DNA from: Sordaria brevicollis
Lineage: Eukaryota; Ascomycota; Sordariomycetes; Sordariales; Sordariaceae
Length of the DNA: 64,000 nucleotides
Direction of reading: 5' to 3'
Assembly (NCBI GenBank): GCA_033439795.1
Contig: JAUTDP010000010.1
Coordinates: forward strand, 1,736,001-1,800,000
Both the position numbers and the translations under genes were made by a program. The notes beneath the pieces are model-generated. The model saw only the letters and a program-made list of their open reading frames with translations, was not told the origin of the DNA and did not search any database. Below, piece by piece: positions 15,272-61,483 of the stretch. Every line of letters starts with the position of its first letter. Position 1 is the first letter of the stretch.

Positions 15272-15449
15272 AGGTCATGGGATATGAGCGGCAGAAAAAA
15301 AAAGAGGACAGGCGTTTTGGTGAGTTTAAGTGAAGGCAACGGCATAAGCCGTTAAGGAAAAGCAGATAGGCTCAATTTTGTGGAATGGAGCTGCGGTGAG
15401 AGGGGGCCAAAATGTGATGAACTTGTCGTTCCCTTCGTTTGTCTGAATA

Positions 15450-15536
15450 CTCGTCAGGTCTGCAAAACCGACCCCATGACTAGCGGGGAGCCCCCTAGTC
15501 AGGGACAGCGAATCGTACATGACCAGCGATTCGTAC
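15450..15536 (+). repeat. Left terminal inverted repeat of Fot1-type element 1
   Basis: 87 bp starting CTCGTCAGGTCTGCAAAACC, adjacent to a TA. It matches the reverse complement of 18665-18751 with four differences. In each, this copy has C where the reverse complement of the right copy has T, and three of the four sit in CpA, the RIP context. The sequence is GC-rich and essentially unmutated. Confidence 0.92.
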
Positions 15537-16899
15537 CGAACGGGGTACATCCCCTGCCCGCAATTTAACTAATACATACAAGTAGTCCATGCGGAGCCAA
15601 TAATTTTTTATAATAATATATCCGTTTTTTTTAGGCGTATGCAAAATCGCTGAAGGGAGCTATATATACAATAATATATAAAAATATTATTATTTTCAAT
15701 ATATATAACTCTAACGTTATTACTATAATTGTTCAACCTCTTTATATTTAAAATCCTTATATCCGTCAATATTATTACCTTTACTCCTATTTCCCTCCTC
15801 CTCCTCTTCCTCCTCTTCCTCCTCCTCTTCCTCCTTTTCGTCGTCGTCGTTAGGAATAACCTCATCCTCGTAGTTAATATATTATTAATCTTCCTTATTA
15901 ATTTATACTATACGCCTATCGTTAGGATATTATTAATTTAAATTTTATTATAAATTAATATATTTATTATCCTTAACTACTTTAACCTCTTATTCCTTAT
16001 CCTTTATTAACGGTATACCCTTATTAATTAGCCAAAATATAATAATATCGTTGGCTACCTTCTTTCTTACTTTATTAAATACCTATAGAATACGAAGTTT
16101 AGGTAGATTATTAAGTAATTATTAATATAAAGGCAATATAACGTTATATATAATACGACTATAGTCTATTATAAATTTAGACTATAATCTTTTTACTTCG
16201 TTATTTATAACCTTTTACTATTTAATTTAATAGTAATTCTAACGCTTTACCCTCTCTTTACGATATTTACTAACAAATTAATTAAAATTTATAAAACGCT
16301 TAATATAAAATTTAATATACTCTTATATCTATTTATATAGAGTCTTTAATAAATATAATCGTAAACGTTTATTAATTATTTATACCTTTTAAATAATAAT
16401 AAAGCCGCTAATCTATTTACGTAAAGTACTTTATTCTTATTAGAATTTACAATTATAAATATACTCCTCCTCCTTTTTATTAAGCGTTAAACGCTAATAT
16501 TTATTAATAATAGTACGTAAACGACCGTTATTAATAATAATTATACTATTACGTTATAATAAACGGTTAATATTATAAAAATTGTATAATACTTCCTCAA
16601 TTGCATTATCCTTCCGTTTACGCTTAAATTCGATTTTATATATTATTAATAAGGTTAATATTCTATTAGCCTTATCCCGTTTAATAAATACGTATATAAA
16701 TATTAATAATAATGGATAATTACTTTTAATTACCGACGAAAGTCGTTAATTAATATAATTATTATATTTTTAAATAGTTAGTAAATTTAACGTGGGTATT
16801 ATTATATTACTTTAATTTGCAATGGGTTGGTTGGAGCGTTTAAGAATAGAGGGTATTATAATAATAGGGAGTTTACGAGTAGGTTAGGGATTAGTAAAT

Positions 16900-18350
16900 A
16901 AAAATGGATTATTTAAATTAATATTAAGTATACGAAAATTAAATTCGTTATCCAATTCTAAATTAATCTCTTCCTATTTAATAAAACGCGTAATATAACC
17001 GCGCTACTATATTATATATTCTTCGTTAATTAATAAAGTTAACGGATTACGAAGGTTTAAAAGAATTAATTCGGGGTTAAATAGGAATAGGCTTATTCTT
17101 TTCTAAATAAACTTAATATTCTTAACTTTAAATACTTTTCTACGTACCTATTTTAAGCTATTAAAAAAATCTAGCTTATTATAATCTATATTATTAAATA
17201 ATATCCTTTTACGAATATTAACCTAATAAAAATACTTATATATTTAGAAAATACTAATATCGAAAGGCTATAAGAAATACGTTAAATATAGGGGTAGTAA
17301 AAATAGAATAACGTTATTTTATTAATAAAATTCGTAAAATTTAATTATATAATAGCTATTATAATTATCCAATATTAAAATTCGCTTCTCTTCCTTATTA
17401 ATAGGTTATAAATACTCTTCCTAGTATTTAAACTAATTTAACGTATATAAATTATTAATATACCTTCGTAGGGAGGCGGCGATTACTATTTTATCGTCGA
17501 GGGAATTATCGATATACTTATACGTAATATTGACGTTAGGAAGTAAAACGAATAGAAGTATAATTCGATTAAATATTAATATAGCCTCCAAAATAATAAT
17601 TAAAATTCGCTAATTTAAATTAACGGACTATATTTCTAATATCTCCTTATAAATCTATACTATATAGACTTTATTAGAAATTCCAACCCTAAATCCAAAC
17701 TCATCCCTATTCTATATATTATCCGGCTTAATTTAGTACTTTTTAAAGGTTTTATAAAATAATTAAAAAATTTCCTCTATATTTATACGAATTTATAATG
17801 CCTTTCGAACCTATACTATGGATTTAATACGTACGGTATAAAATTCTCCCCTCTTAAAGTAGCGCCGAATTTATTTAATAAAGGTTCGAGGTATAAGGGT
17901 ATTTTCATTATTATTATCGCGGTTTATACGTATTAAAGCAATAGTAATTAACGTTAAACGTTGGGGATTTATTTCGATTCCTATAGAATATTATTATTAT
18001 ATATAATAAAGAGACTATATTATTAGTATTAACTAACGGATATTTGTACATTCATCCAAATATATATAGCGAAATCCTCTTCTTTAATAAATAGGGTATT
18101 TAACCCCCTATTACTCTCTTATAATTACGCGCCCTTATAACGATTAATTACCCTTCTATATAGCGTATAGAATACTTTCGCTACGTTTACTATACTTTTG
18201 TATATCCTTTATTTGAACGTACGTACAGTAATTAGAATTCTATTCTCTATAGGTAATGCTTCCTATACGTTATTAATAATATCTTTAATATTAGAAGGGA
18301 TTTTATCGAAGTACGGATTAGGGTTTAAATAAGTAGTAGCGGATACGCTA
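16900..18350 (-). pseudogene. RIP-destroyed Fot1/pogo transposase of element 1
   Basis: Read on the minus strand, a continuous but stop-riddled frame shows the Fot1/pogo DDE landmarks. An N-terminal helix-turn-helix-like segment lies near 18130-18300. The second catalytic block is near 17335-17385 (LILDNYNSYYIIKF, where intact relatives have D-x-H-x-S-H). Just downstream come 'LPLYLTYFL.PFDISIF...KYFY', matching the family's LPPHTSH-LQPLDVxxFxPLK block, and 'LFNPELIL' at about 17036-17093. Most stops fall where relatives have Gln or Trp, as RIP predicts. The product cannot be functional. Limits are approximate because I read the frame by eye. Confidence 0.8.
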
Positions 18351-18664
18351 GGCGAAGGAGATATAATAACGTTAATAGAGGTTACAATGCAATATAGCGT
18401 TTAAAAAATAGGGCGGTAATAAAAGAGGTTACGCAAAATTATTTAAATTCGATTAAAGTTAATTGAACGTAAAAATAAAATAATAATCAATTATTATTAT
18501 TAATATAATAGAATTGAATAGGTTAGTATAAAAGTGTAATATACTAGGTAGTGCGGGGAAGCGGTGTAAAAAAGGCGGCTTACATTTAAAAAAATATGCA
18601 ATTATTTTGGAATACTATGAAATGCTAGCAAATTTGCGGGTGTAGGATATACCCTAAGATTTTA

Positions 18665-18751
18665 GTACGAATCGCTGGTCATATACGATTCGCTATCCCT
18701 GACTAGGGGGCTCCCCGCTAGTCATGGGGTCGGTTTTGCAAACCTAACGAG
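18665..18751 (-). repeat. Right terminal inverted repeat of Fot1-type element 1
   Basis: Reverse complement partner of 15450-15536, followed immediately by the TA duplication at 18752-18753. It carries three CpA-to-TpA changes relative to the left copy, so it was lightly touched by RIP, unlike the DNA just inside it. Confidence 0.92.
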
Positions 18752-18753
18752 TA

Positions 18754-18770
18754 CTCGTCAGGTTTGCAAA
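18754..18770 (+). repeat. 17-bp remnant of a second element-1 terminus
   Basis: Directly after the TA that ends element 1, the sequence CTCGTCAGGTTTGCAAA repeats the first 17 bases of the element's left TIR (one C/T difference) and then diverges. It is either the broken end of an older copy or a footprint. Its TA is shared with element 1's target duplication. Confidence 0.7.
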
Positions 18771-18936
18771 TTCAGTGCTTTACCCAGGTTCAACGCTGAC
18801 CTCGTGACCACAGCACCTGATTCTACTGTACGTGCACTGACCATCCCAGACATGATAGTACGCATTACCCTAACCCTGCAACTCTATTCATGAGCCGGCT
18901 TGGCCTCAACTTATCGTGAACGATAGGAGGCACTGC
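18771..18936. other. Short non-RIP spacer between two DNA transposons
   Basis: About 166 bp of ordinary-composition DNA with intact CpA sites and no coding potential. It is probably original host DNA left between the two insertions. Confidence 0.6.
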
Positions 18937-18938
18937 TA

Positions 18939-19032
18939 CCCGTGCCACGCCCCCACTTTTTTGGGCACTCGAAACTCGCACCCCCTAAAGTGGGTGCTCA
19001 CGGCCAGTACGGCCAACCCACCACAACGGCCA
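18939..19032 (+). repeat. Left TIR of Fot1-type element 2
   Basis: 94 bp, GC-rich, with many intact CpA dinucleotides, adjacent to TA. Its mirror copy is 20976-21069 with one C/T difference. Confidence 0.93.
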
Positions 19033-19130
19033 GATCGTAACAATTTCGAATTTCCTAACAACCTCTTTTTTTTTATATTATTAATAATAATACTACAACC
19101 TCGTTTTCAATTAATAATTATTAGATTTAC

Positions 19131-20870
19131 AATGGAAGCACGTTTATAACGAGCGTTCGATTTCTACGAAGAAAATCCCAACGTTCCGGTAATTATATTG
19201 TATAAAATATTCGAAGTGCCCCGCAAGCGCCTCCGCAATTATATTTAAGGTATCCCTCCTAAAAAAGGCCTCTCTACGTATAATATTAAATTTACGGCTA
19301 GTAAAGAGAAGACTTTATACAATTATATCGACCGTTTCGATAGAATTAATTTCGTTATATAGCTAAAATATATTTAAAACGCTATAAATTATTTACTTTA
19401 ATTTAAACTTTTTAAATAGGAGTTCGAAATTATAGGTAATAACTTACCCCGTATTAATTACAATTAAGCGTCCCGATGTATTAAACGTTACGAATATTCT
19501 AAAATTAAATAGAAAAAAATAAATAATATTAAAAAGAATAACGAAAACGTAATAAAAGTAAACCGCCTTTTTAATATCGTTTTTAAGCAAAATCGCTAAT
19601 AATTAATATAATAGGTAGCGGTATACTTCGAAAAATTTTATAACGTTATTTAATAAAAAGGCTTCTTCCCGTTGAATATTTAGAATATAAACGAAATAAG
19701 TTTCTATATTAATATAAGAAAAGATTAAATCGTTATTACTAAGCGGAAATGTATATACTACTTCGCTATCTTAGAAAATCGAAAATTAATTACCTATATT
19801 AAAGTTATTTTAGCGTTTAGAGAATATTACTTTATTTTTATAATTTTTATTAATTAATTATATATATTAAATTAATATGAAATATTAAAATTAAATTTAC
19901 GTATAATTATCGCAATAGTATTAATAGGGTATTCGAACGATTAATTATCTTTTAAATAATTAAAGTATTAGGACGAATATTTTAAAAAGCTTTAATAAAG
20001 TAAGAAACGGTTATTTATATTCAATAATTATAACTCCTACTATATTGAAGAATTTCTTTAATATTATAATAACCGTAATATTATAATATTTAATCTATTT
20101 CCCTACCTTATTTATTTATTTCAACTTCTCGATATAGTAGTCTTTTAACCTCTTAAATACTATTACTCTTAAATATTTAATATATTAATTCGTAATAATT
20201 ATATTAATATTACTAAATTGGATTTCCTAAGTATTATAGAGGGTATAAAGAATAACGCATTCAAATAATCGATAATTAAATTTGGATTTAAAAAAACAAA
20301 TATTTATCTATTTAATCTACAAATAAATAAGCACCCCCCTCTCTAGCTATCTAATACCTTTTTTAATATATATTTAATAATTTATATAATAATAATAAAT
20401 TATATTCGGACCGCTTTAAGATTATATAACGTAATATATACCCTCCCCCCTATTAGGACCTTCGACTTCTTTTACGCCGTTTTAAATACTAAATAACCTT
20501 CGCTAAATAAATAAAGCGGCTAATAAACTATATAATATTATAAAAGAACGAGATTTATCCTTATTATTCAAAAAGATGGTATTAAATTTTATTAAGGGTA
20601 GTAAGGTTATTACCGCGGAATTAATATAAATTAAACGCGACCTAGGTAGAACCTAATATATTAAAGCCGTAAAACGTCGGCGCAAAATATACGGTGGTCG
20701 ATTAATACAATTTGGTAGTATTTTAAAAGTTTTTGATAGCCGAATTATAATATTTAAACGAATTGATAATAACCTTTGTACTACTTATAAGAAAGTCGAT
20801 AAAGCGAATTAATAATATTAAAATAAGGTAAAAAAATAGGGATTTAAAGCGGTAAAATTATTTAGAAAGT
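19131..20870 (+). pseudogene. RIP-destroyed Fot1/pogo transposase of element 2
   Basis: The frame opens at an ATG (19131, protein MEARL) and continues with a recognisable N-terminal helix-turn-helix: 'RAFDFYEENPNVP', 'LYKIFEVPRKRLRNYI', then 'ASKEKTLYNYIDRFDRI'. This matches the psq/CENP-B-type start of Fot1 transposases. Further down come 'NINEISFYINIRKD', the relic of the first catalytic block (near 19690), 'FNNYNSYYIEEF' for the second (near 20020) and 'LFPYLIYLFQLLDIVVF.PLKYYYS' for the LPPHTSH/LQPLD block. More than twenty in-frame stops, mostly TAA/TAG at expected Gln or Trp, make it inactive. The end is approximate. Confidence 0.82.
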
Positions 20871-20975
20871 GGCGGAAGGAGGGTAAGCTAAAGCCTTTTG
20901 AAGTATTCAAACCGGGCTATCGAATTTATGGAATCTAATTAGATTGATTAATATAACCTCATTTTTATTAGAATG

Positions 20976-21069
20976 TGGCCGTTGTAGTGGGTTGGCCGTA
21001 CTGGCCGTGAGCACCCACTTTAGGGGGTGCGAGTTTCGAGTGCCCAAAAAAGTGGGGGCGTGGCACGGG
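20976..21069 (-). repeat. Right TIR of Fot1-type element 2
   Basis: Reverse complement partner of 18939-19032, ending at the TA 21070-21071. It lies only about 420 bp upstream of the COG8 start codon. Confidence 0.93.
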
Positions 21070-21071
21070 TA

Positions 21072-21487
21072 ACACTCTTACAAACCTCTTGTCGCCGACA
21101 AGCCTACTACCAACCCAACATATCACTTTTTTAAGGGGAAAAAAAAAGGAAAAGAAAGAAGGAACTACATTAGACAATACTGGCTGCTTGCACTCAGTTG
21201 TTGATTAATTTTGAGTCGAGGTTAGGACCTCATGTATGGAATTCTCAAACCATTGCTAACACCCGACTCTTTTGAGGTTGTTTGACCGTATCTCACATCC
21301 ACATCTTTACAGGGGGCTCGCAGCACCGTTCTTGAGTGGCCGACCGTCATCCCTACGAGGTTCCTACATATCCAAACGACCACCAAAAAAGAAACTGTGA
21401 AGTCGCGCGAGCGTGCGACATGGGAGAGAGCCACTTATCCTGAAAACCCATCCTCAGAGATCCAATTGCGCGTCAAACCAGTCAGAT
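21072..21487 (+). promoter_or_regulatory. Promoter and leader of COG8
   Basis: All the unique DNA left between the transposon end and the COG8 start is about 416 bp. It holds a purine-rich stretch (21135-21165) and an in-frame upstream ATG at 21413 that would add 25 Arg/Pro/Ser-rich residues. The composition returns to normal immediately after the TIR. Confidence 0.5.
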
Positions 21488-34774: not shown

Positions 34775-37115
34775 ATGAGCCGTGCCGGTAGTCGTCATTA
34801 CCGCGACTATAGCGACGACGAGTCGCTGGCGTCCACGGGCATCGATATCCGTGTCCATCGGGCGCCGCCTCCCGGCATGCACCGTCCTGCTCCCAGGTCG
34901 CCTTCACCCGATCATCAACGTGGCCCTACCTACATCCAGTCGGTCTCCCGCTCCGAGTTTGGTGGCGGATCCAGGGAACGTCCCTACTGGGAGCAGCGTG
35001 GCCCCTCCGTGGTCAATGAGCGCACTCTCGTGGCTACTCACACCCATAGCCGCTCGCGGTCGCGTGCAGGATCCCGTGAGCGCCGCTCTACTCCTCCCGG
35101 CATGGTTGTCCCACAACCGCCGTCTCCTTCTGTCGCCAAGGGACCGGTTGTTGTTCAAAACATCATCCGCCGCGGCCATCACAGCTCCTCCGACTCATCG
35201 TCTGACTCAGAGTCTGAGTACCATCTCCATGCCGGTATCAGCAAGCGGAAGCAAAAGTCTCGCAGCCGTGGACACAGCCGTGCCCGTAGCCGCGCTTCAT
35301 CGAGCGGCGAAAGCAACTTTGATGATGCCCACACCAAGTGGGAGCTGGAGAGGATGAAGGCCGAGCTCGAGGCCGTGAAGTCTGCCAATGAGCAAAAGAA
35401 GCAGAGTCTCACCCAGGAAAAGTACCACGAAGAGGAGATCGAGCTCATCAAGGCTCGGGAGAAGCTGGCCCAAATTAGGTTCGAGGAGGAGCGGAGCCGC
35501 TCCGCTCATGACACCGAAAAGTCACTCCGCCTGCGCGATGCCGAGTCCAAGCTCGCGCGCCTCGAGCGTGACGCTGAGGAGAGGCGCTTCCAGGCCGACC
35601 ACGACAAGGATATCGACTACCACCAGACCAAGTTCCAGCTCGAGCTGGTCCGGCGCAAAGAGGACGACGAGCGCCAGCAGAGCCACCTCCGGGAGCAGCA
35701 ATCCTTACATGAGGCCAAGTTCCAGCTGGATCTCATCAAGCGTAAAGAGGAGGAGCGTCGTCTCCAGGAGCAGCACGAGGAGCATGACAAGCTCTACGAG
35801 GCCAAGGTGCAGCTCGACCTCTTGAAGCGCAAGGAGCAGGAGGCTCGCGAGCGCGACAAGTACAGGGAGCACGACGAGCTGGTGCACACCAAGTTGCAGC
35901 TTGAACTCGTCAAGCGCAAGGAGGAAGAGGTGCGCCACCTGGAAGAGGAGCGCAAGAAGGAGGCCACGTTCGAGAAGCAGCAGCAGCTCGCGCAGGCCAA
36001 GTACGAGCTCGAGATGATCAAGCGCCGCGATGAGGAGCGTCGCCGCGAGGAAGAGGAGCACCGTCGCGAGATGGAGTACGAGAAGCAGCACCAGCTGCAC
36101 GAGGCCAAGTTCCACCTGGACATGATCCGCCGCCAAGAAGAGGAGCGTCGCCGCGCGGCAGCCCGCGAGGAGGAGGAGAAGCTTCTTCGCGCTAAGGAGA
36201 AGCTTGAGAGACTAGAGCGCGAGGAGGAAGAGGAGCGCAGGCAAAAGAAGCTCCAGGAGGAGTTGGAGTTGCGCAAGGCCAAGGAGGAGCTTGATCGCAT
36301 CCGCAAGGAGAAGGAGAAGAAGGAGGAAGAGGAGCGCTTGCGTCGCGAGTACGAGCTCAAGCGTCTCGAAGAGGAGCGCAAGGCGGAAGAGGAACGCAAG
36401 CGTAAGCAAGCGGAGGAAGAAGCGGCCGTGGCGCGCTGGAAGGCCAAGGAGGCCGAGCGCCTGGCCAAAGAGAAGGAGGAGAAGGAGCGTATGGAGAAGG
36501 AGTACCAGCGCCGTCTGCAGGAGGATCTGATTAACTCCGGCTTGGACGAGAAGGCCATCGCTGCCATTCTCAAGAGGGAGAAGATCAAGAAGGGCAAGAA
36601 GGGCAGCGATAGCGACAGCGACAGCGAGAAGGACGATAAGAACAAGGGGCAGATTGCTCGTCCTACTTACACTCGCATGTCGCTGCGCCATCTCGACGTC
36701 GAGACCCTTTACCACTTCAAGATTGACTTTGAGTATGATCAGGTACGTATTGTCTCCCCTTTACCCCCTTTCCCTGACAATTTCACTAACAACCAAACAG
36801 GAACCAGGCTACGTCCTCATCAAGCGTTGGGTGCCCGAATGGGAACAGCAGCAACTCTGGGATCACACTCGCCAGATCCGCACCGTCGTCACCAAGGAGG
36901 TGTCCGAGACGCTCGTCATCAAGGACAAGCGTGACAAGCACCGCGACCGCTCGCACTCGCGCCATCATAGCCACAGCCACAGTCACAGCAGCCATCACAG
37001 ACACAGCAGCAGGGACGATGACCAGTTCGAGTTTGTGCGCAAGAAGAGCAGCACGAGACATCGCAGCAAGAGTCCCAGTTTGTTGATGTACTTGGCTGGT
37101 GGACGTCCGTCATAA
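34775..37115 (+). CDS. Charged coiled-coil protein with a conserved C-terminal (DUF8035-like) domain, 760 aa
   Basis: Exons 34775-36742 and 36801-37115 join in phase 0. I start at ATG 34775 (MSRAGSRHYRDYSDDE); the frame is open further upstream but that part looks like leader. Residues 1-180 are an Arg/Ser/Pro-rich, RS-like region. From about 190 to 625 there is an uninterrupted, highly charged helix made of repeated units of about 32-37 residues with the core '(E)AKFQLDLIKRKEEERR', seen at least six times with substitutions. A folded block, 'RPTYTRMSLRHLDVETL...YVLIKRWVPEWEQQQLW', crosses the intron at about residues 635-695, and the tail is His/Ser/Arg-rich. The conserved block matches what I know as a fungal domain of unknown function (DUF8035). 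Function is unknown. The RS/His tail suggests RNA or nuclear association, and the long helix suggests a structural spacer. Confidence 0.82.
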
Positions 37116-49770: not shown

Positions 49771-49826
49771 CGCTGTGTGTTGAAAACGAGGTGTCAGTCC
49801 CCACTTTGTACGGGCACCCCCCTTTA
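49771..49826 (+). repeat. Left inverted repeat of the mariner-type unit
   Basis: 56 bp, GC-rich with intact CpA sites, matching the reverse complement of 61428-61483 with one C/T difference. RIP-type composition begins about 25 bp further in. Confidence 0.9.
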
Positions 49827-49859
49827 CACAATACCACATTAAAACAAACATCGTAAATC

Positions 49860-51000
49860 GTAAAAGTTGAATATCTCCGCGGTTTTACTACTAAATCTAT
49901 TAGTTTTAATCGGATTTTGAAGCTCTCGCGATATATAATCGGTATAGCTATAAGAATACGTAGTAATAAGAGGCAGCGTTAAAGTATCTATATAATATTA
50001 ACGGTTAGCGAGTATTTATGTAAAATCGTGTAATTTATTAGTATAAATAAGTGCTAAATTTAGAGGTTAAAACGAAATTTCGATACTACTAGTAAATTAT
50101 ACTTTTAGAGTAATTCGAAATATAATGTAATAATATTAACGCTAGCGGTTATAGAGGTGAGTAATAATTATAAATTTTGAGTACCCTAATAGAGTATTTA
50201 ATTATTAGTCGTATAAAAAGTTCTCGAATTCCTTTACTATAAGCCCAATTTATACTTCGATAAGATATAATATTATTTAATTATTAAAATAAATATATAT
50301 ATATTAACGAATGTTATATTAAAGTAATTGAAAACTTCCGAATAGATTAATAAGAGGATGGCGTATAAAGTTTTTTAGCGTAATGAATTATTACGGTTAA
50401 ATTAATTAAAAAAGGTTTTTATATTTTTAACGGAAATATTCGTATTTTATAATAAATTTAATATTAATAAGAAGGATAGCGTTCGTCGTATTAGATAAGT
50501 ACTAAAAAGTATAGTATTAATTATAGAAAGTACATTTACTAAGGGGAAACGGTTTTATTTATTATTAATAATAACCGTAAATAGCTTTATTAATATATTA
50601 TATTATAAAGGAATAATAAATACGATTAATTTTATTATTTAATTAGAGGAAGAAGTATTATTTAAAATAAATCCGTTCTTTAGTCGTTATAATATATTAG
50701 TGATAGATAACGTATTATAGTATAAGAACCCCTTTATTAAGATTGTATACAATCATAAAGGTATATTATTATAATTCTTACTATTATATTTTCTAAATTT
50801 TAATTTTATCGAAGTATATTTCAATAATATAAAGGCCTATATACGACGGTAGTATTAGTACGTTAATAGTAATACGCTAAGTAATAAAAAGTTTAAAAAT
50901 TTTTTAGAGAAGGTCGCGTAAGAGGTAGGGCAACGGGTCGATATTATATACGGGTATTACCGCTAAGTAAACGTACCCTTCTATAACGACGTTAATAATA
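49860..51000 (+). pseudogene. RIP-destroyed Tc1/mariner (IS630-type) transposase
   Basis: The plus-strand frame, broken by many stops, shows the catalytic landmarks of Tc1/mariner enzymes. 'LVIDNVL.YKNPFI' near 50697-50740 corresponds to the second Asp block (DNxxxH). 'LLLYFLNFNFIEVYFNNIKAYIRR' near 50775-50860 corresponds to the LPPYSPDFNPIE-xxFxxLK block. The upstream part, with 'ALAIYNRYSY' and later 'GWRIKFFSVMNYYG', is compatible with the DNA-binding and first catalytic parts. Substitutions fit C-to-T change on both strands. Non-functional. Confidence 0.75.
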
Positions 51001-51171
51001 ATAAAAATTATATTACATTATATAGGAATTAATTATACGAATTAATAATAATGGGAATAATCGTATAAAGATATTGTTTTATATAGTAGATATACCGTTT
51101 TAAATATATTCGAAATCGACTATTATCGAATTACGAAAAAAAAATCCCGTAAGGTATAAAATGTATTAAAC

Positions 51172-51176
51172 GTACT
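51172..51176 (+). repeat. 5-bp target duplication (GTACT), left of gypsy
   Basis: GTACT immediately before LTR 51177. The same five bases follow the other LTR at 58433-58437. A 5-bp duplication is standard for LTR retrotransposon integration. Confidence 0.85.
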
Positions 51177-51483
51177 TATCACAGGGATAGTTAACGCAAG
51201 GGTAGGTAGTAGATATAAATATATATAATTGCATAGAGGAAGAAAGAGGAAAAGGAAGAAAGTGTGCGTAGGAGGCCCGCCCTTTATAGGGCGCGATAGG
51301 AACGCGTTGGTCACGCGCGGTTAGGTGACCCTAACCGTATAGGCGGTAAATAGTAACGTAATATCCTATACGGGCGGGACTATCCTAAATATAATAATAC
51401 ATTTTAGGAAGCGACTACTATACGAGTATAAATACGTAATAGTAATATACCAATTACGTATAATTATAATTAGGCCTATAATA
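51177..51483 (-). repeat. 3' LTR of the gypsy element
   Basis: 307 bp. Its left, outer end keeps C and G at the 16 sites in the first 92 bp where the other LTR has T or A. Its right, inner end carries T or A at all 27 differing sites in about the last 135 bp. Confidence 0.95.
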
Positions 51484-51799
51484 TTACTTCCCTTTAAAAA
51501 AAGCTATATAATTAATTATTATTATATAAAATAATCGAAATCTTTATTAAAAAAGTTTTTATAGCTATTATTTTTAAACGCGGTAACCTTTTCCTCCTAT
51601 TATACTCCTCTTATTATATTTCCGTCTCCGTTTCCGGGGCCTTCTTTAGCGCTATAATTATATCCTCCCGTATTCCTCCCGTTTTCTGGGCTTCCCGTAC
51701 CTTTTACTTCCTCCGCTTCTTTTTTTCTTCGAATTATTACAATAGTATTAGGGTATTTAGGTTTTCTTCGTAAAATCGGCGTATATATTTTAAATATAT

Positions 51800-54700
51800 C
51801 GAAACGTTACTCTTTAATTACTAATTAAGGGCGTAAAGGGGTATTTATATAACGTAATACTTTTAGAAGCAGCCCTCTTTCCTATAGCCGTTAATTTTAA
51901 TAAATTCCTATTTAATTTACTCTTTACTATCGTTAATACGCTTTAAAATCCGATTATAATTTACTTATATATTTTTATTCAATTATAATTATCTTAATAA
52001 TTTATTATTTAATTAACGTTTAATTTTATTAACGTAAAAAGTAGGGTTATATTTTATATTATTAAGGAATTCGAATGTAATAATATAGGTATTGGTGCCG
52101 GTAATTATAAAAGGTCCTTTAAAAAGCGGTATTAATTTAATATAAGGGCGGCCGGAATTGAGATTAATAATATCGAATAAAACCCGGTCCTCCGGTTTAT
52201 ATATTAAAGCGTCCGATTATTGGGTATTAGTATTATTTTTATAATATTATTAGGTTTTTCGGGCGTTCGTTATAATATAGTCGAATATTTCTTTAAAACG
52301 ATTAACGATTTTATAGGTTTTAAAATATTCCTTTTATTATATTACCGAAATTTTAGGGGGATAAGGTACTGTTAATTTAACGCTTATATAGGGGTTAAAA
52401 TTATAATTAATAAAAAAGGGGGAAACGTTAATTATTTTGGAAATTTAATTATTATTAACGAATTCCGTAAATAGTAATTAATTAACCTAATTATCCTATA
52501 TTTAAATAATATATATCTTTAAATACTATTCTATTTCTACGTTAATACGTTCGGTTTAACCGTTTATTATTAAATAAAAAGCGGAGGATAATTTTAATAT
52601 AATTTTTAATTATATTAATAGAGCGCGTTAAAATATCGAAATAAATTAAATATTATAATTAGAAATAATAGAATCGGGGAGGTTATATAAATTATATACC
52701 CGCTTAATAAAACGTTCGGCCAATTTTTCGGTAATAAAAGTCTCGTAAAGGATATAATAGCGTATTTTAATAAAATAGTTAATTATTATAATAATATATT
52801 TAAATTCTTAGCCGCAATATAAATATAGGGTAAGAAGGGTAATATAATTAATAAAAATTTCCTTCTAAGCGGTAAAAAGGACGCTTAATAATTTTAATAA
52901 TTTATAGGGGGAATAGCGTAATAATTTAGTTTTAACGTATTAAAAATATATTTTATAATAAATACGAATCGATTAATATATTTTTAATTAAAAGTATAAA
53001 CGAAATAATAAATAGAAAGTTTTTTCGCGATTTAGGTAATTAATAAAGGGGGCGTTGTAAATACGGCGGATTAATTAGAATTATAATTCTATATCTTTTA
53101 AATTAATAATAATAGTACTATAATAATAAATTCGCCCTTATACTATTTAATATTTTATAAACGCGGTCCTTATTATTTATTTTCGTACTTCCTTAAATTA
53201 AACGTAGCGTTTAGAATTTTAAAAATAGGTTAAAAGGTTTATAAAAAAGACGGATTTTTTATAAAATTCGGTAATAAAATTATTTATAGACTTTTTATTA
53301 AAAATTTCCAAATTGTAAAAATAATACGTACTTACGTTAATTTCGGAATCCACTTCCGCTTTTATATCGTTTAATATTTAAACCTTATTAACGAATATAT
53401 TCTAATCGAAAAATACTTTATTATAAGCGAATAAATATTTATTTCTTTCGTAGGGAATATCCTTTAATTTATAACTAAGGGCGTTAAATCGGATTTAGAA
53501 GGAACCCGGTCGATATTTAATTATAAAATTAAATTATAATAAAAATTAGAATTATTATATATACCGAAGAGAGAATTATTTATTGACGGTAAACGTTTTT
53601 AAAGTTTTATAATTTATTAATACTTCGAAAAGTTATTATACGCTTTTAAATTTTAATCTCTATTCCTTTAATATTTTAATAATAACGAATAATTTTTTAT
53701 TATAAATATTATAATTACTTTCGGCCGTTATATATTATTAATTAAAGTAAATAATTAGGCGTAAAATATTTTCGTTATTATATTGCGAGAGAGTATTATT
53801 ATATATTTAATTAGAAGCGTTAATTTCGATAATTATTTATTTAGATTAATCGTAAATTCGTAGAACGGGATTTATAGTAAATACTTTTTTAAAGGCGTTA
53901 AACGATTTTTAATATTATTCGGTTTATATTTACATTATTTTATTTATATCTTTCTTTATAAATTTATATAATAGTCCTACAATAATAGAGAAGTATTTAA
54001 TAAATCGTCGGTAAAAGTTTATAAAATTTAGGAAATATTAGAAGGAGCGTTTAGAGTCCGGGGCTTTTTAAACGATAATTATAATAATTTTTTCGGGGTC
54101 TATTTCGAAATTATTAGGAATAATAATTAAATTTAAATATTTCGTATAAATAATATAAAATTCGTATTTATTAACGTCGAATTGGAAGCTTATTTTAATT
54201 ATATAATTTAAAATTTCTATAATATAATAAATATAATCTTTTTCGTTATTAAAATATATTAGGATATTATTTAAATAAACAGTAATATAAACGTCTAAAA
54301 TATCGTAAAATATATTATTAATATAATTTTAAAATATCCTTAATACGCCCTATAAATTGAACGGGTAGATTATTAATTCGAAAAGGCCGAAACGGGTAAT
54401 AAACGCTATAAATTATTCGTATCCCTCTTTAATCCGAATACGATTAAACGTAATAATAACGTCGAATTTAGTAAAGATTTTTACCTTATAAATAATATCA
54501 AATATTTTTTTAATTAATAATAATAGGTAATAGGATTTTATAATAACGTTATTAATATTATAGTAATCGATATAAATGCGGACTCCGCCGCTAAATTTCT
54601 TAACGAAGAAAATAGGGGCTATAATAGCGGATTAAAAAAGTCGGATAAATTTCTTTTAAAAATTAATATTAATTTATTTTTTAATTACGGCCGCTTCGAT

Positions 54701-57700
54701 AGGCGTAATATATCGGGGCTTTATATTAAACGGTTATTATTTTAATAATAATTCGATTTTATAATCGTAAAAATAATACAGCGGGATTTCTTTTATTAAG
54801 CGGGGAAGGAAAGCTTTAATATTCTTATAATATTTAATTAGGATTTTAATTTTAATTTCGTCGTCGAATTTAATAAATTTATCGTTTTTTTTTAGAAAAA
54901 TTTTTATATCCTCTTTAATAATTTTAGCAACGTAAACCTATTTAAAGATCTCTTTATATACGGGAATATCCTAATTAAAATCCTTTATTAAATTTAATAC
55001 TCTTATTAAAGCGGCGGCTTCCTTATCCTTATTGGAATTAATATTATTAATTATTATATCAACGAACGGATAAATAAACGGCGGTAAAAAGTATTTATAT
55101 TATTCCCCTTTATTATTTATAATATTATTTATTATATCCTTTATAAATTCTTCGACGTCCGTCAATTTCGAAATTATAAATAGCCGTTTTAATGTAACGT
55201 AGTTAGTAATTAAGGGTTTAAAGTTTTATTTCTTATATATATAATTAAATATAATAGCGTTAAATTTTTTAATATCGGCTATATTAAATGCGTTATTAAT
55301 ACGTATAAAACGTTATAATTATATTGGGCGTACCGTTTTAATAAAAATACGGCGGTTATTTAAGCGAATATATAATTCGTAAATTGTAGGGCTTTTAATT
55401 TTAACGAAAAGGGCGGCCGTACTAAAAATTCCTTATATTTTAATTCTAGTTCGATTAATAATTAAAACCTTTATAGGGTTATTAATATAATATAGAGAAT
55501 TATTATATTATTTAATTTTAAAAATCGAAAAAAGAATTAAAGTAAATTTATTTTTAAAAATTAAGGAAGAGGGTAATAATTTAAGGATTAATATTATTCG
55601 CGGGGTAATTTAAAAAGTAAATTCTGGTTGTAAGGTTATTTTAAAGGGTTTAAGGAGCGGAGGCGGCGGCGGGGTTAAAATCGGGGTATTTAATTATAAT
55701 AGTAGGCGAATAATTACTACTGTAACGCAATTAATAAAGCTTTTAAATATAGTAATTTATTTATCGGAAAAATTTGAAGGGAAGTAACGGCTACGGTATT
55801 GGGTAAAGCGGACGGTATAATTATTATAATTAATTTTAAATTAATAATATTATATTTATAAAAAGCCGAAAATAATAGGGTAATTTTTAGAAATATCGTA
55901 AACGAAGAAGGTAATAGTCTCCGTATAAAAATTAATGCGAAATCGAACGCGGACTCCTTTAAAAATAATACCTTTAACGATTCTATTAGTAAGGACTAAT
56001 TTCTTTAATCGTAAAAGTTTAAAATGCAGGAAATTATTCTTTTTTATAAATAAAGAATTTAAAAAAGCGTAAGTAGAATAACCGTTATTTATTAAAATAA
56101 TATAATAATTTTTACGCGATTCGGTATATATATAAAATAATAAGAATATTAAATTTAAAGATACGGAATTATTTAAAAATTAAATTCGTATTTCTTCTAA
56201 ATCCTTTAATTTATAATTTAAAATTTACTTCTTTAATAATATTAATTCGGGCTTTTATACGCAATTATATATAGAAGTTAAGTATTTCTTTAATCGTTAT
56301 AATATTCGCCGTTAATAATTTATTCGGCGGGTTAAACGGGAGCTGGGTTAATAACCGAAGCGGGAGCCGGGTTAATAGCGAGGGTATTAGCGCTACGAAC
56401 GTTAATAATATTATTATTATTACTATTATTATTCCTATTACGATTATAGTTACCGTTACGACGGTTATTCTTATTAATAAGGCCCTAAGGACTATAATTA
56501 ACGGAATAAAGGTAATCTTTAACTAAATAACCGGATTAACCGTAGTAACGATAAAGGTTATTACGTATACGTTAATCCAATATATTAGGGTAAATAATAT
56601 TAATAAAATTAATAGCGTTGAAATTTATTTTATTACCGCTTTAATTAATAATATAATTATTAAAATTAAAAGTAGAATTAGAATTATTAATAATAGAATT
56701 AGAATTACTACCGGAATTAATATTAATATTATTATTAAGGGCGTTATTAAAAATATTACGGGTTATATAGGCGTAGTAATCGGTATCGTCTTAAATATAG
56801 GCAATTTTATAATATATTTCTAATTATTTATCCTAAACGTCGTTAGCGGGGGCTTATAATAGGCGCCGGCGTTATAAATACATTTAAAAACTTTATTCTT
56901 TAAATATTCGACCTTTTAAACTTTAATTAAGCCGTAAACGGTTATTAAAAACGTTAATTTTATTTCGAAATTAGTAAAATTCTTATTAAATTAATAATAT
57001 TTAATTAAACGACGTTAAATATCCTACTTAATATTAATTATTTCGAAATATTTAATTAAATATTATATAAATTCGGTACCCGTTTTTTATTCTTAAACGT
57101 CTTTATTATTTTTAATTATAATAATTTTAATAAAATTATTAATACCGGATTTAAAATCGGGGCTAAATAATATAATTATACATAGAATTTTCTAACGTTC
57201 GTCCTAAAATAATATTAAATTATAAATTTATTAAATCTAAATAATTATATATTAAGAATAGAAAATACGAATATATTTAGTAGAATCCTTTTTAAAATTA
57301 ATAAAAACGGGGGGGTCGGTAATTATTTATTTATAAATATTATTAATATTTAAAGCGGCGGGGTTAGGGTTATTAAAATTGGAAAATATAATAGCGGTTT
57401 AGGTATTAAATTTATTATATTAAATTTTAAAATCGGAATATTCTTTTTAAAGAACGGCGTATAACGTTTAAAGGTTTTTAAAATCGATAAAAATTATATC
57501 GAACTAATTAATAAAATTATTATTCTAATCGCGGATAAATATATAATCGTTACGAAAGTGCTAATAAACGCGGCCGAATAATTAAACAATAAACGCAAAG
57601 GCGGCTTCTCTAATAATTAAGGAAGTATAATCGAAATAATTATAAGGGATAAAGCGGGGCTCTTCATCGTTATTAAAATTTATAAGGATTTCCTTAATAT

Positions 57701-57923
57701 CTTCGTCGGAAGTAAATTTATAGAGGGTAATACGGACGATATTAATGTTAAGAATTAAATTATTATTATTATTAATAATATTATATAAAATTTTTAAAAT
57801 AACGGCGTTATTAAGATTAATAAAATTAATATTAAAAACCGGAACGTTAGGGAGAATATTCGACGTATTATTAAGGGAAAAAACTATAGGGTCGCTATCG
57901 CCGTCGTAAAATATAAAGAACAA
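51800..57923 (-). pseudogene. RIP-destroyed gag-pol of the gypsy element
   Basis: Minus-strand relics by eye: a 113-codon open piece at 57582-57923 near the gag start; a CCHC zinc-knuckle relic near 56520-56575 (pattern LYRYYG.SGYLVKDY, where the intact form has Cys, Cys, His, Cys); the reverse transcriptase block 'APIFFVKKFSGGVRIYIDY' near 54550-54620; the catalytic block 'YLNNILIYFNNEKDY' near 54230-54300 (YLDD or YVDD in active relatives, D changed to N by RIP); and the integrase C-terminal GPF region 'GRPYIKLIPLFKGPFIITG' near 52080-52160. Dozens of stops; no function remains. Confidence 0.88.
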
Positions 57924-58125
57924 TATAATTAAAATCGCTTAATCGTTATAAATCTTTTTATCTATTAAATATAAAAACCCTCCTTTATTTAATTAAATAA
58001 AGGGATTTAATAATAAAGGAAATATATTAATTCGACGGCTCGTATATAGCGAATAGGAAACAAGCGACTTATTTTGAATAAAATAAAATTACACGTAAAC
58101 GTATTATTTTAAAAGTGTAATTAAT

Positions 58126-58432
58126 TATTATAAAGATAATTAACGTAAAGGTAAATAATAAATATAAATATATATAATTATATAGAGGAAGAAAGAGGAA
58201 AAGGAAGAAAGTATACATAGGAGGCCCGCCCTTTATAGGGCGCGATAGGAACGCGCTAGTTACGCGCGGTCAAGTAACCCTAACCGTATAGGCGGTGAGT
58301 AGTAACGTAATATCCCGTACGGGCGGGACTATCCCGAGTATAGTAGTACGTCTTAGGAAGCGACTACTATACGAGCACAAGTACGTGATGGCAATATGCC
58401 AATCACGTGCAGTCACGGCTAGGCCTATAATA
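58126..58432 (-). repeat. 5' LTR of the gypsy element
   Basis: 307 bp. Its inner (left) end is RIP-mutated and its outer (right) end preserved, the mirror image of the other LTR. The duplication GTACT follows at 58433-58437. Confidence 0.95.
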
Positions 58433-58437
58433 GTACT

Positions 58438-61427
58438 AAAAGTATTAAATTTGCTATTAGAAGTATAAAAATATTATTATTTATAATAATAGATTGAAGT
58501 ATAGAATTCCCCTTTTATATAAAAAAAATCCCTTATAATTCGTTATCCTCCTCTTCGTTAACTTTAATCGCGGTCTCATCTTTATCGTAATTAGTATACG
58601 GGCTATTATTTAAATTAGTCTCTTTATCGTCGTTAATAAAGCTAATATAAACGGTATCGTTATTATTTTCTTATTTTTAATTAAAGTTCTAATCGATAGG
58701 GGGTAGGCCGTAGTAATTATAAACGTTTTGCTAAAGCGAATTTTAAGGGATAAACGAATTTAGTAAATACGATGGTTAGTAAAATATAGTTATAAAAAAA
58801 TAATAAACGGATAGGATTTACTTTATAATAAGAACTTAGGGTCTATAATTTAAAGTATTGGAATAACTTCACATTACGGTGGTAAGGGAGTTAGTGCCGC
58901 CCGCGGTAATAGTAATAATAGTAGTAGTAATAGTAGTAACGACGACCGCTATATATAATCCTTTTCGAAATAGAAAAATTCTTTAATCCCCTTTTTAATT
59001 ACTATATAAATACCCTTATTAACCCTATAAGTAAAGTACTACTACTTAGGGAAGTCGCGCGTATAGTAGAGGGAAAGCCGATTGGATATGAGGGATTTTT
59101 AAATACTAAATAGCGTATTACGTAAACCTTGGTTTTCGTTGGTTTTAGGCGCGTATTGAAATATTAATTACTTTATAAAATCGATAATAAAGGATTCTAA
59201 TAATTTATTTAACAATAATAAAAGTAAAGGGGAAGAGGGTAAAGGGTCGTTATTACTAATTCGATTACTATTAACGCGGGAACTAATTACAATTATAGTC
59301 GTAATAAATAAAGTAAATAAAGTAAATTTAATTATTATATTTATATTACCTATATTTATATTACTAACGTTAATAAAAATTATAAGGGCCGTAATTAGTA
59401 TCGTATTATTATTATTACTATTTTAATAACCGTTTTAAAGAGAAATATTAAAAATTTAAAGTATAAGTATATATTTTACCCCGCCGCTACTATACTTCGA
59501 CTCTAATACGCTATATAATAGAAATTATTAAAATAATTATAAATTTAATTATTAAATTATTTATATACCGGAGGAAAAAGATTCGTACTTAAAATCGAAT
59601 TAACGTCCCGTAATAAAGGTTGGAGGTTAATTTATAATAGCGCGCTTTTAAATAATAACGTATACCCAATTAATAAAATCTCTTAATATTAATAAATAAT
59701 AATATTTAAAATTAGAAAAAAGAAAATACTAATAATATTCGTTACCTTTACAATAATTTTTATACTCGCAACCCTTATTACATCCTTATACCTTACCTAA
59801 ATCCTTATATATTAGGGTAACCTATTCTTTATTTTAGCGCGCCTCTTTATAATCGCGTGCGTAGCGCGCTATAAGCTCCTCTACTATCGAATTAGTCGTA
59901 GTCTTTTTCTTATTCGATTTAATAGACTATTTAAAAATACTAGTAAATATAACCAATTATTTAGAAATATTAATAAGAATATTAAAGCCGGCGAGGGTAA
60001 ACGTAACGGGTATAAAGGACTAACGTAAAGAGGAGGGTTAGCGGGATTAGGATTATAATTATAATTACGCGAGCTTTTTAATAAAAAAGGTAATTCTAAA
60101 AAATATTAATATACTTATAATAAATATAATATTTTATTATTATTAAAATCCCCCAATTATACGAAGGTAAATAATAATTGTAATAAAATACCGTTTAGCG
60201 GGCTTTTTAAATAGGTTGCGTAATATTTTAATAATATTATAAAACCCAAACGGTATAATTGGATTATCCTTTTTAAATAAAACGCGTAATTAGAATAACG
60301 TTGTACCTTTCTTATTTTTAATTATTTTTAATATATTAGCCGATTAATTTATATATTATATAAAAATAATAGAATTTATACCTAAAAGTTTATACTCGTT
60401 GCGGGCAATATTTATAATACTATTCTCGACTTCTTATATTTAACCTAATAAAATAAAGCTAAGGGTATTAAAATCGTTATTGGTATTAATAATACTATTA
60501 GGATTTCTCTTAATAAGGACCCGGTCGTTTAAAACGAAAGTAAATAGTTTACTAGGTATAATCGATAGGCGGTTAAATTATATATCCATTACTTACTAAA
60601 TATTATATATAAATAAAATATTTAGAAAATTTAAAATCGGTAGCGGCGTTAAGGGAACCGAAATTAATTTACGCGATTTTCTAATAATATAAAAGGACCG
60701 AAGAGAGGGCGCGGCGCGAAATATCATTTTAATAATTTTAATTTCGTTTTATTAATTTTTTTACTATTTATCGTAATCCTCCTCCTCTATTATATTATTA
60801 ATTATATTTACGTTTATATTAAAGGCTAATCGAAAATAACGAAGTTAAAATTGTAATCGAAGAAAGGGGGCGGTCGAAAAGGAAAGTACTTTAAATTTAA
60901 TTTTTAAATTAAAAGTAATACGTTAAGTAGGTTATTTACTAATAATAAAACTCCTTTTTAATTTAATAGTCGTTTTTTTATTCTTATTATTATTTTTGAA
61001 AATAATATGGGGGGTTTGAATAAGTATTAGTCTTCTTAGAATCCTCTTATTATCCCTATCCCTGTCCCTATTATTTCGCTTTTATTTTCTTCTACTTTCA
61101 AATTCGGTATTAATTTCTTTTAAATAGGCGCTAGGCTATAATAACCGCTTTAAACGTTGGCGATTATTATCGTTATTATTATTATTGTCGGCGGTACGTT
61201 TTTTAGGAAGTATAGCGGGAGCGGGGGTAACGGTACTAAATATAAAACGGATTCTAAATAAATTAGTAGATTAACTAGGATCCCTTAGTATTAATCTTAA
61301 ACGACGCGGGGTATTTATACGAGTTTAGAGCAGTAATTAAAATGTAAATACCCTCAAATTTGGTAATAATATAGGAGTTTGAAGGTTTGGGGTTATCACG
61401 TATAAATAGATTTTACGTATGTGTCTA
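58438..61427 (-). pseudogene. Unidentified RIP-destroyed gene in the right arm of the mariner-type unit
   Basis: On the minus strand a single frame can be followed from about 60730 down to about 60160 for some 190 codons. Its interruptions are TAA or TAG and could be former Gln or Trp codons. Readable pieces include 'MIFRAAPSLRSFYIIRKSRK', 'KLFTFVLNDRVLIKRNP' and 'LFKKDNPIIPFGFYNIIKIL'. Near 58540-58680 another acidic piece (FINDDKETN...NEEEDNEL) ends in a stop and looks like a C-terminus. A basic, Asn/Arg/Asp-rich piece lies near 61000-61170. I do not recognise the product; it is not the transposase found in the left arm. It may be a second gene of the element, a captured host gene, or part of another element. 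Limits are approximate. Confidence 0.5.
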
Positions 61428-61483
61428 TAAAGGGGGGTGCCCGTGCAAAGTGGGGACTGACACCTCGTTTTCAACACACAGCG
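61428..61483 (-). repeat. Right inverted repeat of the mariner-type unit
   Basis: Reverse complement partner of 49771-49826, 55/56 identical by eye and unmutated, directly followed by GC-rich DNA of the next element. Confidence 0.9.

Follow-up and report, generated by a model that had tools for sequence, protein, structure and literature searches.

RIP mutation tapers toward the ends of transposable elements in three families of the Sordaria brevicollis genome

In this study, we found that RIP tapers toward the element ends in three transposon families of the genome of Sordaria brevicollis. In the LTR family, the mutation pressure at the very end of the element was about 10% of the inner value, and parity was reached near the centre of the LTR. 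It has long been asked how RIP senses homology without recombination, and the question has been studied mostly with engineered repeats. LTR pairs offer a ready-made control, as every copy of an element carries the same sequence at the end and inside one homologous unit.

The DNA analysed here (the window) is a stretch of 64,000 nucleotides, C2:1736001-1800000, of the 53-Mb genome. The features used in this study are listed below in window coordinates; no strand is assigned to them.

18934..21074, no strand: member of a third transposon family, with 110-bp inverted ends that are 95% alike; ends spared
49773..51176, no strand: host TIR transposon, left arm, mutated; its own outer end at 49773 spared
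51172..51176, no strand: target-site duplication (TSD) GTACT, left copy
51177..51483, no strand: left LTR, 307 bp; outer half (about 51177-51327) spared and inner half mutated, from the alignment and the family-wide pairs
51484..58125, no strand: internal region of the LTR element, about 21-26% GC across the inner kilobases
58126..58432, no strand: right LTR, 307 bp; outer half (about 58282-58432) spared and inner half mutated, from the alignment and the family-wide pairs
58433..58437, no strand: target-site duplication GTACT, right copy
58433..61481, no strand: host TIR transposon, right arm; its own outer end near 61481 spared

The longest stop-free piece among those listed for the internal region of the LTR element was 118 aa. 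Four unmended frame pieces of this region gave no Pfam match, and its short minus-strand pieces carry what we take, judging by eye, to be reverse-transcriptase-like motifs. Elsewhere in the window, a further inverted-repeat element lies at 15445-18756 (170-bp arms at 77%, with GC-richer tips), and GC-rich DNA with imperfect direct repeats was seen at 35541-36316.

The original prediction was that the two LTRs of this element carry mirror-image RIP footprints with the outer edges spared, and this observation is confirmed. The alignment of 51177-51483 with 58126-58432 was gapless over 307 bp and showed 49 differences, all of which were transitions. At LTR positions 1-92, the unmutated base was in the outer copy at 51177 for all 16 differences, while at positions 172-294 it was in the outer copy at 58432 for all 27. 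The mixed zone in between (131-151) held six differences, four unmutated on the left and two on the right.

The LTR family was collected across the genome by two LTR searches, each represented by the best 40 of 93 candidates, which with the stretches around these LTRs gave 86 LTRs and 42 left-right pairs. Paired LTRs with a 5-bp TSD, exact in 36 of the 42 pairs and differing by one transition in four more, are as expected of an LTR retrotransposon. Two pairs, each with a truncated LTR, were left out, and 40 clean pairs were kept. These contained 2071 differences, 2058 of them transitions, of which 1720 had the unmutated base in the outer LTR, 333 had it in the inner LTR and 5 fell at the central column. 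It had been predicted that other copies of the family would show the same edge zone, and the outer halves were indeed spared in 40/40 clean pairs, the lowest outer share being 0.65; chance is excluded, because the same sign recurs in every one of them. When only the outermost 51 bp at the two ends were counted, there were 922 outer-spared transitions against 25 inner-spared ones. The pattern was not produced by searching with the LTRs of the window: a query from the element interior (best 40 of 178 candidates) returned 40 elements with 38 clean pairs, and 38/38 agreed.

The LTR insertions are independent. Segmental duplication was rejected, as there were 35 distinct TSDs among the 40 elements and the left LTRs differed pairwise at 21-70 sites; the 300-bp flanks shared only two similarities longer than 80 bp, both at about 78%. 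Three copies, C4:12361-19617, C6:12764-20019 and C13:19044-26306, are found 12-26 kb from contig starts and differ in their TSDs, and perhaps they reflect a subtelomeric preference. Beside one LTR element, C3:1266153-1266652 (in L005) is a 500-bp stretch with about 5% GC. The left terminus of the LTR (positions 1-2) was TA in all 76 copies, both outer and inner, while at the right terminus (306-307) 23/40 right LTRs had CA and the others a mutated TA.

The inner LTR ends were mutated at 0.60-0.97 in their last 20-bp bins. LTR-LTR pairing within one element predicts four spared LTR ends and was therefore rejected as the main driver; we infer from these inner edges that RIP recognises the element as a whole rather than its 307-bp LTR pair. 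Protection intrinsic to the sequence, or by a nucleosome that the LTR sequence positions, was likewise rejected, because the identical sequence is mutated at the inner position but spared at the outer one.

The shape of the ramp was described by a hazard model with a free hazard for each site, fitted to 76 copies, in which d is the distance from the element end. At d 1-17, the outer/inner hazard ratio was 0.116 on the left and 0.102 on the right. It rose to 0.23 at either end by d 35-51, and the left and right values were then 0.38 and 0.54 (d 86-102) and finally 1.00 and 0.78 (d 137-153). The AIC was 9130 for a logistic curve, 9134 for a linear ramp, 9238 for a step and 10587 for a flat profile. 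Thus, the claim that the outer 90-130 bp escaped holds as to the sparing, but a protected zone of fixed width, being 108 AIC units worse than the logistic curve, gives way to a gradient. Nor is the outer edge untouched: at the 10 polymorphic C/G sites of LTR positions 1-20 in 36 left and 40 right LTRs, 27% of the outer cells were mutated, compared with 70% of the inner ones. The linear ramp of this family reaches 1 at 274-277 bp, a figure to be read with the fact that only the ratios g(d)/g(308-d) are identified, and therefore the plateau must come from other families. A profile of polymorphic columns beyond 307 bp was uneven because fully mutated columns drop out, and it was set aside.

The AT-rich flanks of the LTR element in the window proved to be a second family, a 4.46-kb transposon with a DDE transposase and inverted ends, which is split by the LTR element. 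Its DDE_3 match (1.6e-28) and its inverted ends of about 57 bp mark it as a DDE transposon, which we take to be IS630/Tc1-like. The 200-bp end of this transposon occurs with 100% identity at 25 places, namely L090 (C4:1374009-1380582) and 24 others, beside 17 heavily mutated copies, and one pair compared at length was 99.9% identical over 4404 bp. Because of these identical ends and this pair, an unmutated natural copy could be used as the reference. It seems that the 25 identical places are a recent burst untouched by RIP. A second open frame in the young transposon (L090:469-2649, plus strand; 726 aa) had no Pfam match. About eight copies, with some 55-60 transversions against the reference, form a subfamily.

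Measured against this reference, C>T/G>A changes were far above T>C/A>G in 18/18 copies, as RIP produces. At end A of the transposon, the six 50-bp bins of d 501-800 showed the CpA preference of RIP, with 0.88-0.92 of CpA mutated against 0.53-0.78 of CpT, 0.24-0.51 of CpC and 0.12-0.65 of CpG. Two C5-methyltransferase genes were detected in the genome. The RID relative, a 904-aa open frame on C6, is identical to 'RIP defective [Sordaria brevicollis]' and has 59-67% identity to five named Neurospora proteins of 760-850 aa. The other encodes a BAH domain, and its 561-aa piece matches PDB chain 9bap (1456 aa, E 4e-233); from the architecture, we presume it to be a DIM-2 relative.

The taper was also found in the TIR family. 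End A was analysed in 16 of 17 fetched mutated copies and the window copy, one of them without its first 48 bp, and end B in 13 of 16 copies and the window copy, one of which stops short of the edge. The CpA sites of end A were mutated at 10% in d 1-50, then at 31%, 56%, 69%, 68% and 77%, and at about 90% beyond 300 bp; at end B, the proportions were 0.14, 0.50, 0.73, 0.81 and 0.88 in successive bins. In linear ramps with context and site variation, the plateau began at 430 bp for end A and at 300 bp for end B, and alternative ramp fits gave 410-449 and 219-340 bp; the ramp extends well past the 57-bp inverted repeat. The plateau of mutation pressure thus lies at roughly 220-450 bp, varying with the family and the model.

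For the third family, pairwise transitions per site were counted among the window member and six copies. They were 0.006 and 0.016 in the last 50 bp, 0.06-0.07 at d 51-100, 0.06 and 0.15 at d 101-150, and 0.09-0.20 further in. These counts are taken as supportive only, because the family has no unmutated reference copy. The self-comparison of the window gave no match between the third and the second family.

The sparing follows the boundary of the LTR element itself, as had been proposed, and this is seen in 40/40 pairs. A flank-driven effect was rejected, since the mutation of the outer edge was independent of the flank GC (Spearman 0.05, p 0.66, n=84). In the copy at C23:2732811-2740065, both flanks had 0.40-0.60 GC from the first 50 bp and the interior was mutated; its outer ends were mutated at 12% and 21% and its inner ends at 73% and 92%. 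The confinement of RIP to the repeat is clear only in this copy, most others sitting in AT-rich DNA. In the window, the flanks are AT-rich as originally described, but their heavy mutation does not serve as an argument for the rule, as they are a separate mutated transposon. Within 100 bp of the LTR insertion, the CpA sites of the host transposon were mutated at 10/14 and 11/12, and at 100-200 bp at 14/15 and 7/12, whereas in the last 100 bp of its own left end only 4/20 were mutated; near the right end, it was partly spared (8/15). As the host is not clearly spared at the insertion but is spared at its left end, RIP most likely acted on it before the LTR element inserted. The flank mutation is therefore probably an older, separate event, which has no bearing on the boundary rule.

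A strand offset was also observed. In the LTR family, cytosines on the strand with its 5' end at the edge stay spared farther in, and the balance point between left and right LTR was 178 for C sites and 135 for G sites. When labels were permuted within 30-bp bins, 0/1000 permutations reached the strand term; bootstrapping over elements gave it an interval of 0.26-0.62, and 30/40 elements agreed. Its sign was alike in both LTR halves (reached by 0 and 10 of 1000 permutations), a result that unequal site hazards would not produce. At the TIR ends, the fitted offset was +32 and +24 bp in edge coordinates, with the same sign, which would be reversed at one end if the polarity followed the orientation of the element. 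When permuted within end, 40-bp bin and context, the likelihood gain at the TIR ends was reached by 0/60 permutations (largest 15.3 vs 16.2), and an offset as large occurred in 9/60. A rigid shift of the ramp in the LTR family amounted to only 8 bp, with a gain reached by 5/200 permutations, and within 50 bp of the left edge the two strands were nearly alike (0.153 and 0.164). Raw TIR bins of opposite sign were found at end A (d 51-100, 0.33 vs 0.26) and end B (d 201-300, 0.90 vs 0.83), and the offset fits one of the six mixed-zone sites in the window. We consider it possible to probable that the strand offset, 8 to 32 bp in the fits, is real, and it suggests a directional mutator. That RIP is spatially polarised, with the mutated cytosine some 10-30 nt 3', on its own strand, of the licensing paired homology, is put forward here as a tentative idea.

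The most likely explanation of the taper is poor licensing of RIP at the ends of shared homology. We think it probable that RIP acts after insertion through homology over the whole element, with a strength that tapers to the homology end. RIP would strike each element following its insertion, and a base would be mutated only inside a paired-duplex stretch of a few hundred bp. Because such a stretch must fit within the homologous region, the terminal bases would be covered less often. The mutations may then fall slightly 3' of the licensing homology on the mutated strand, by the 10-30 nt which the strand offset indicates. On the other hand, heterochromatin or a mutator might nucleate inside the element and decay endward regardless of pairing homology, an alternative that we regard as unlikely. 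A DIM-2 relative is present in the genome, which fits this alternative. Of five truncated, fragmentary or interrupted copies, none was spared nearest the break, as distance from an internal nucleation zone would have it, and farther from the break two of the five were mildly under-mutated (ranks 5 and 3 of 43). None of these copies supports the earlier suggestion that a base needs homology on both of its sides. These breaks are undatable and may post-date RIP; if they predate it, the reading of the taper as a homology end fails and the chromatin explanation gains. However, the sparing was equal in AT-rich and GC-rich flanks, and in elements of 2.1, 4.46 and 7.26 kb alike the mutation fades within a few hundred bp of either end, contrary to what decay from a single internal centre would predict.

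The strand offset has the right sign, in the LTR family and at both fitted TIR ends, for a mutator that loads in homologous duplex and runs 5' to 3' on the target strand, so that the edges, with few loading sites upstream of them, are spared. About 91.9% of the mutation clusters of N. crassa were reported to be one-stranded (PMC7296669), which also favours a directional tract and is the background required for an edge strand offset; the part of this rate study available to us describes no edge profile or directionality. Nevertheless, such a tract is improbable as the cause of the taper, as both strands ramp, whereas in its pure form the strand that ends 3' at the edge would not be spared, and the offset is small beside the ramp. 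Selection for mobility, by which only copies with good ends transposed, is conceivable in the TIR families, whose ends are required for transposition. It is refuted in the case of the LTR family, as a single inserted copy there carries one sequence that is spared at its outer position and mutated at its inner one, and the TIR ramp passes the inverted repeat to about 300 bp, so we judge it very improbable overall. An artefact of assembly or base calling is the least credible of all: the assembly-based data gave no sign of it, and the 40 clean pairs, the TSDs, the strongly directional excess of transitions (2058/2071), the smooth gradient and the recurrence in three families stand against it. 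The preferred reading remains homology over the whole element that licenses RIP poorly at its ends.

Gladyshev and Kleckner (2016) likewise studied C-to-T mutation in repeats by RIP in N. crassa (PMC4858203). As far as their paper was available, RIP was triggered by as few as 155 bp of homology and was substantial at 220 bp, and a distal stretch of about 130 bp in a synthetic construct escaped RIP (PMC4858203). These figures agree in scale with the Sordaria ramp. The portions at hand describe neither a systematic taper at natural element ends nor a strand offset. In Zymoseptoria tritici, RIP was also counted along transposons, and the accessible text, which does not separate outer from inner LTRs, reports the reverse pattern: 35% of the de novo TE mutations lay in the most distal 5% of the TE length, mainly in LTR elements, and RIP leakage into the flanks was not found (PMC10294615). 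The passages seen on the crapaud LTRs of Podospora (PMC10787394) hold no comparison of outer with inner LTR within an element. A literature search over titles and abstract openings, with key RIP papers partly covered, returned no report of an edge taper. We regard the end taper as a new feature of a known process, RIP.

The taper would explain why transposon tips outlast the genes between them. It also means that the dating of elements by LTR divergence is biased in species with RIP. If the ramp holds in other fungi, the length scale of the machinery, and perhaps its direction, could be read from existing assemblies. If the proposed polarity is true, each repeat end would be a natural ruler from which both the direction of the mutator and the size of the homology-sensing unit, a few hundred bp, could be read.
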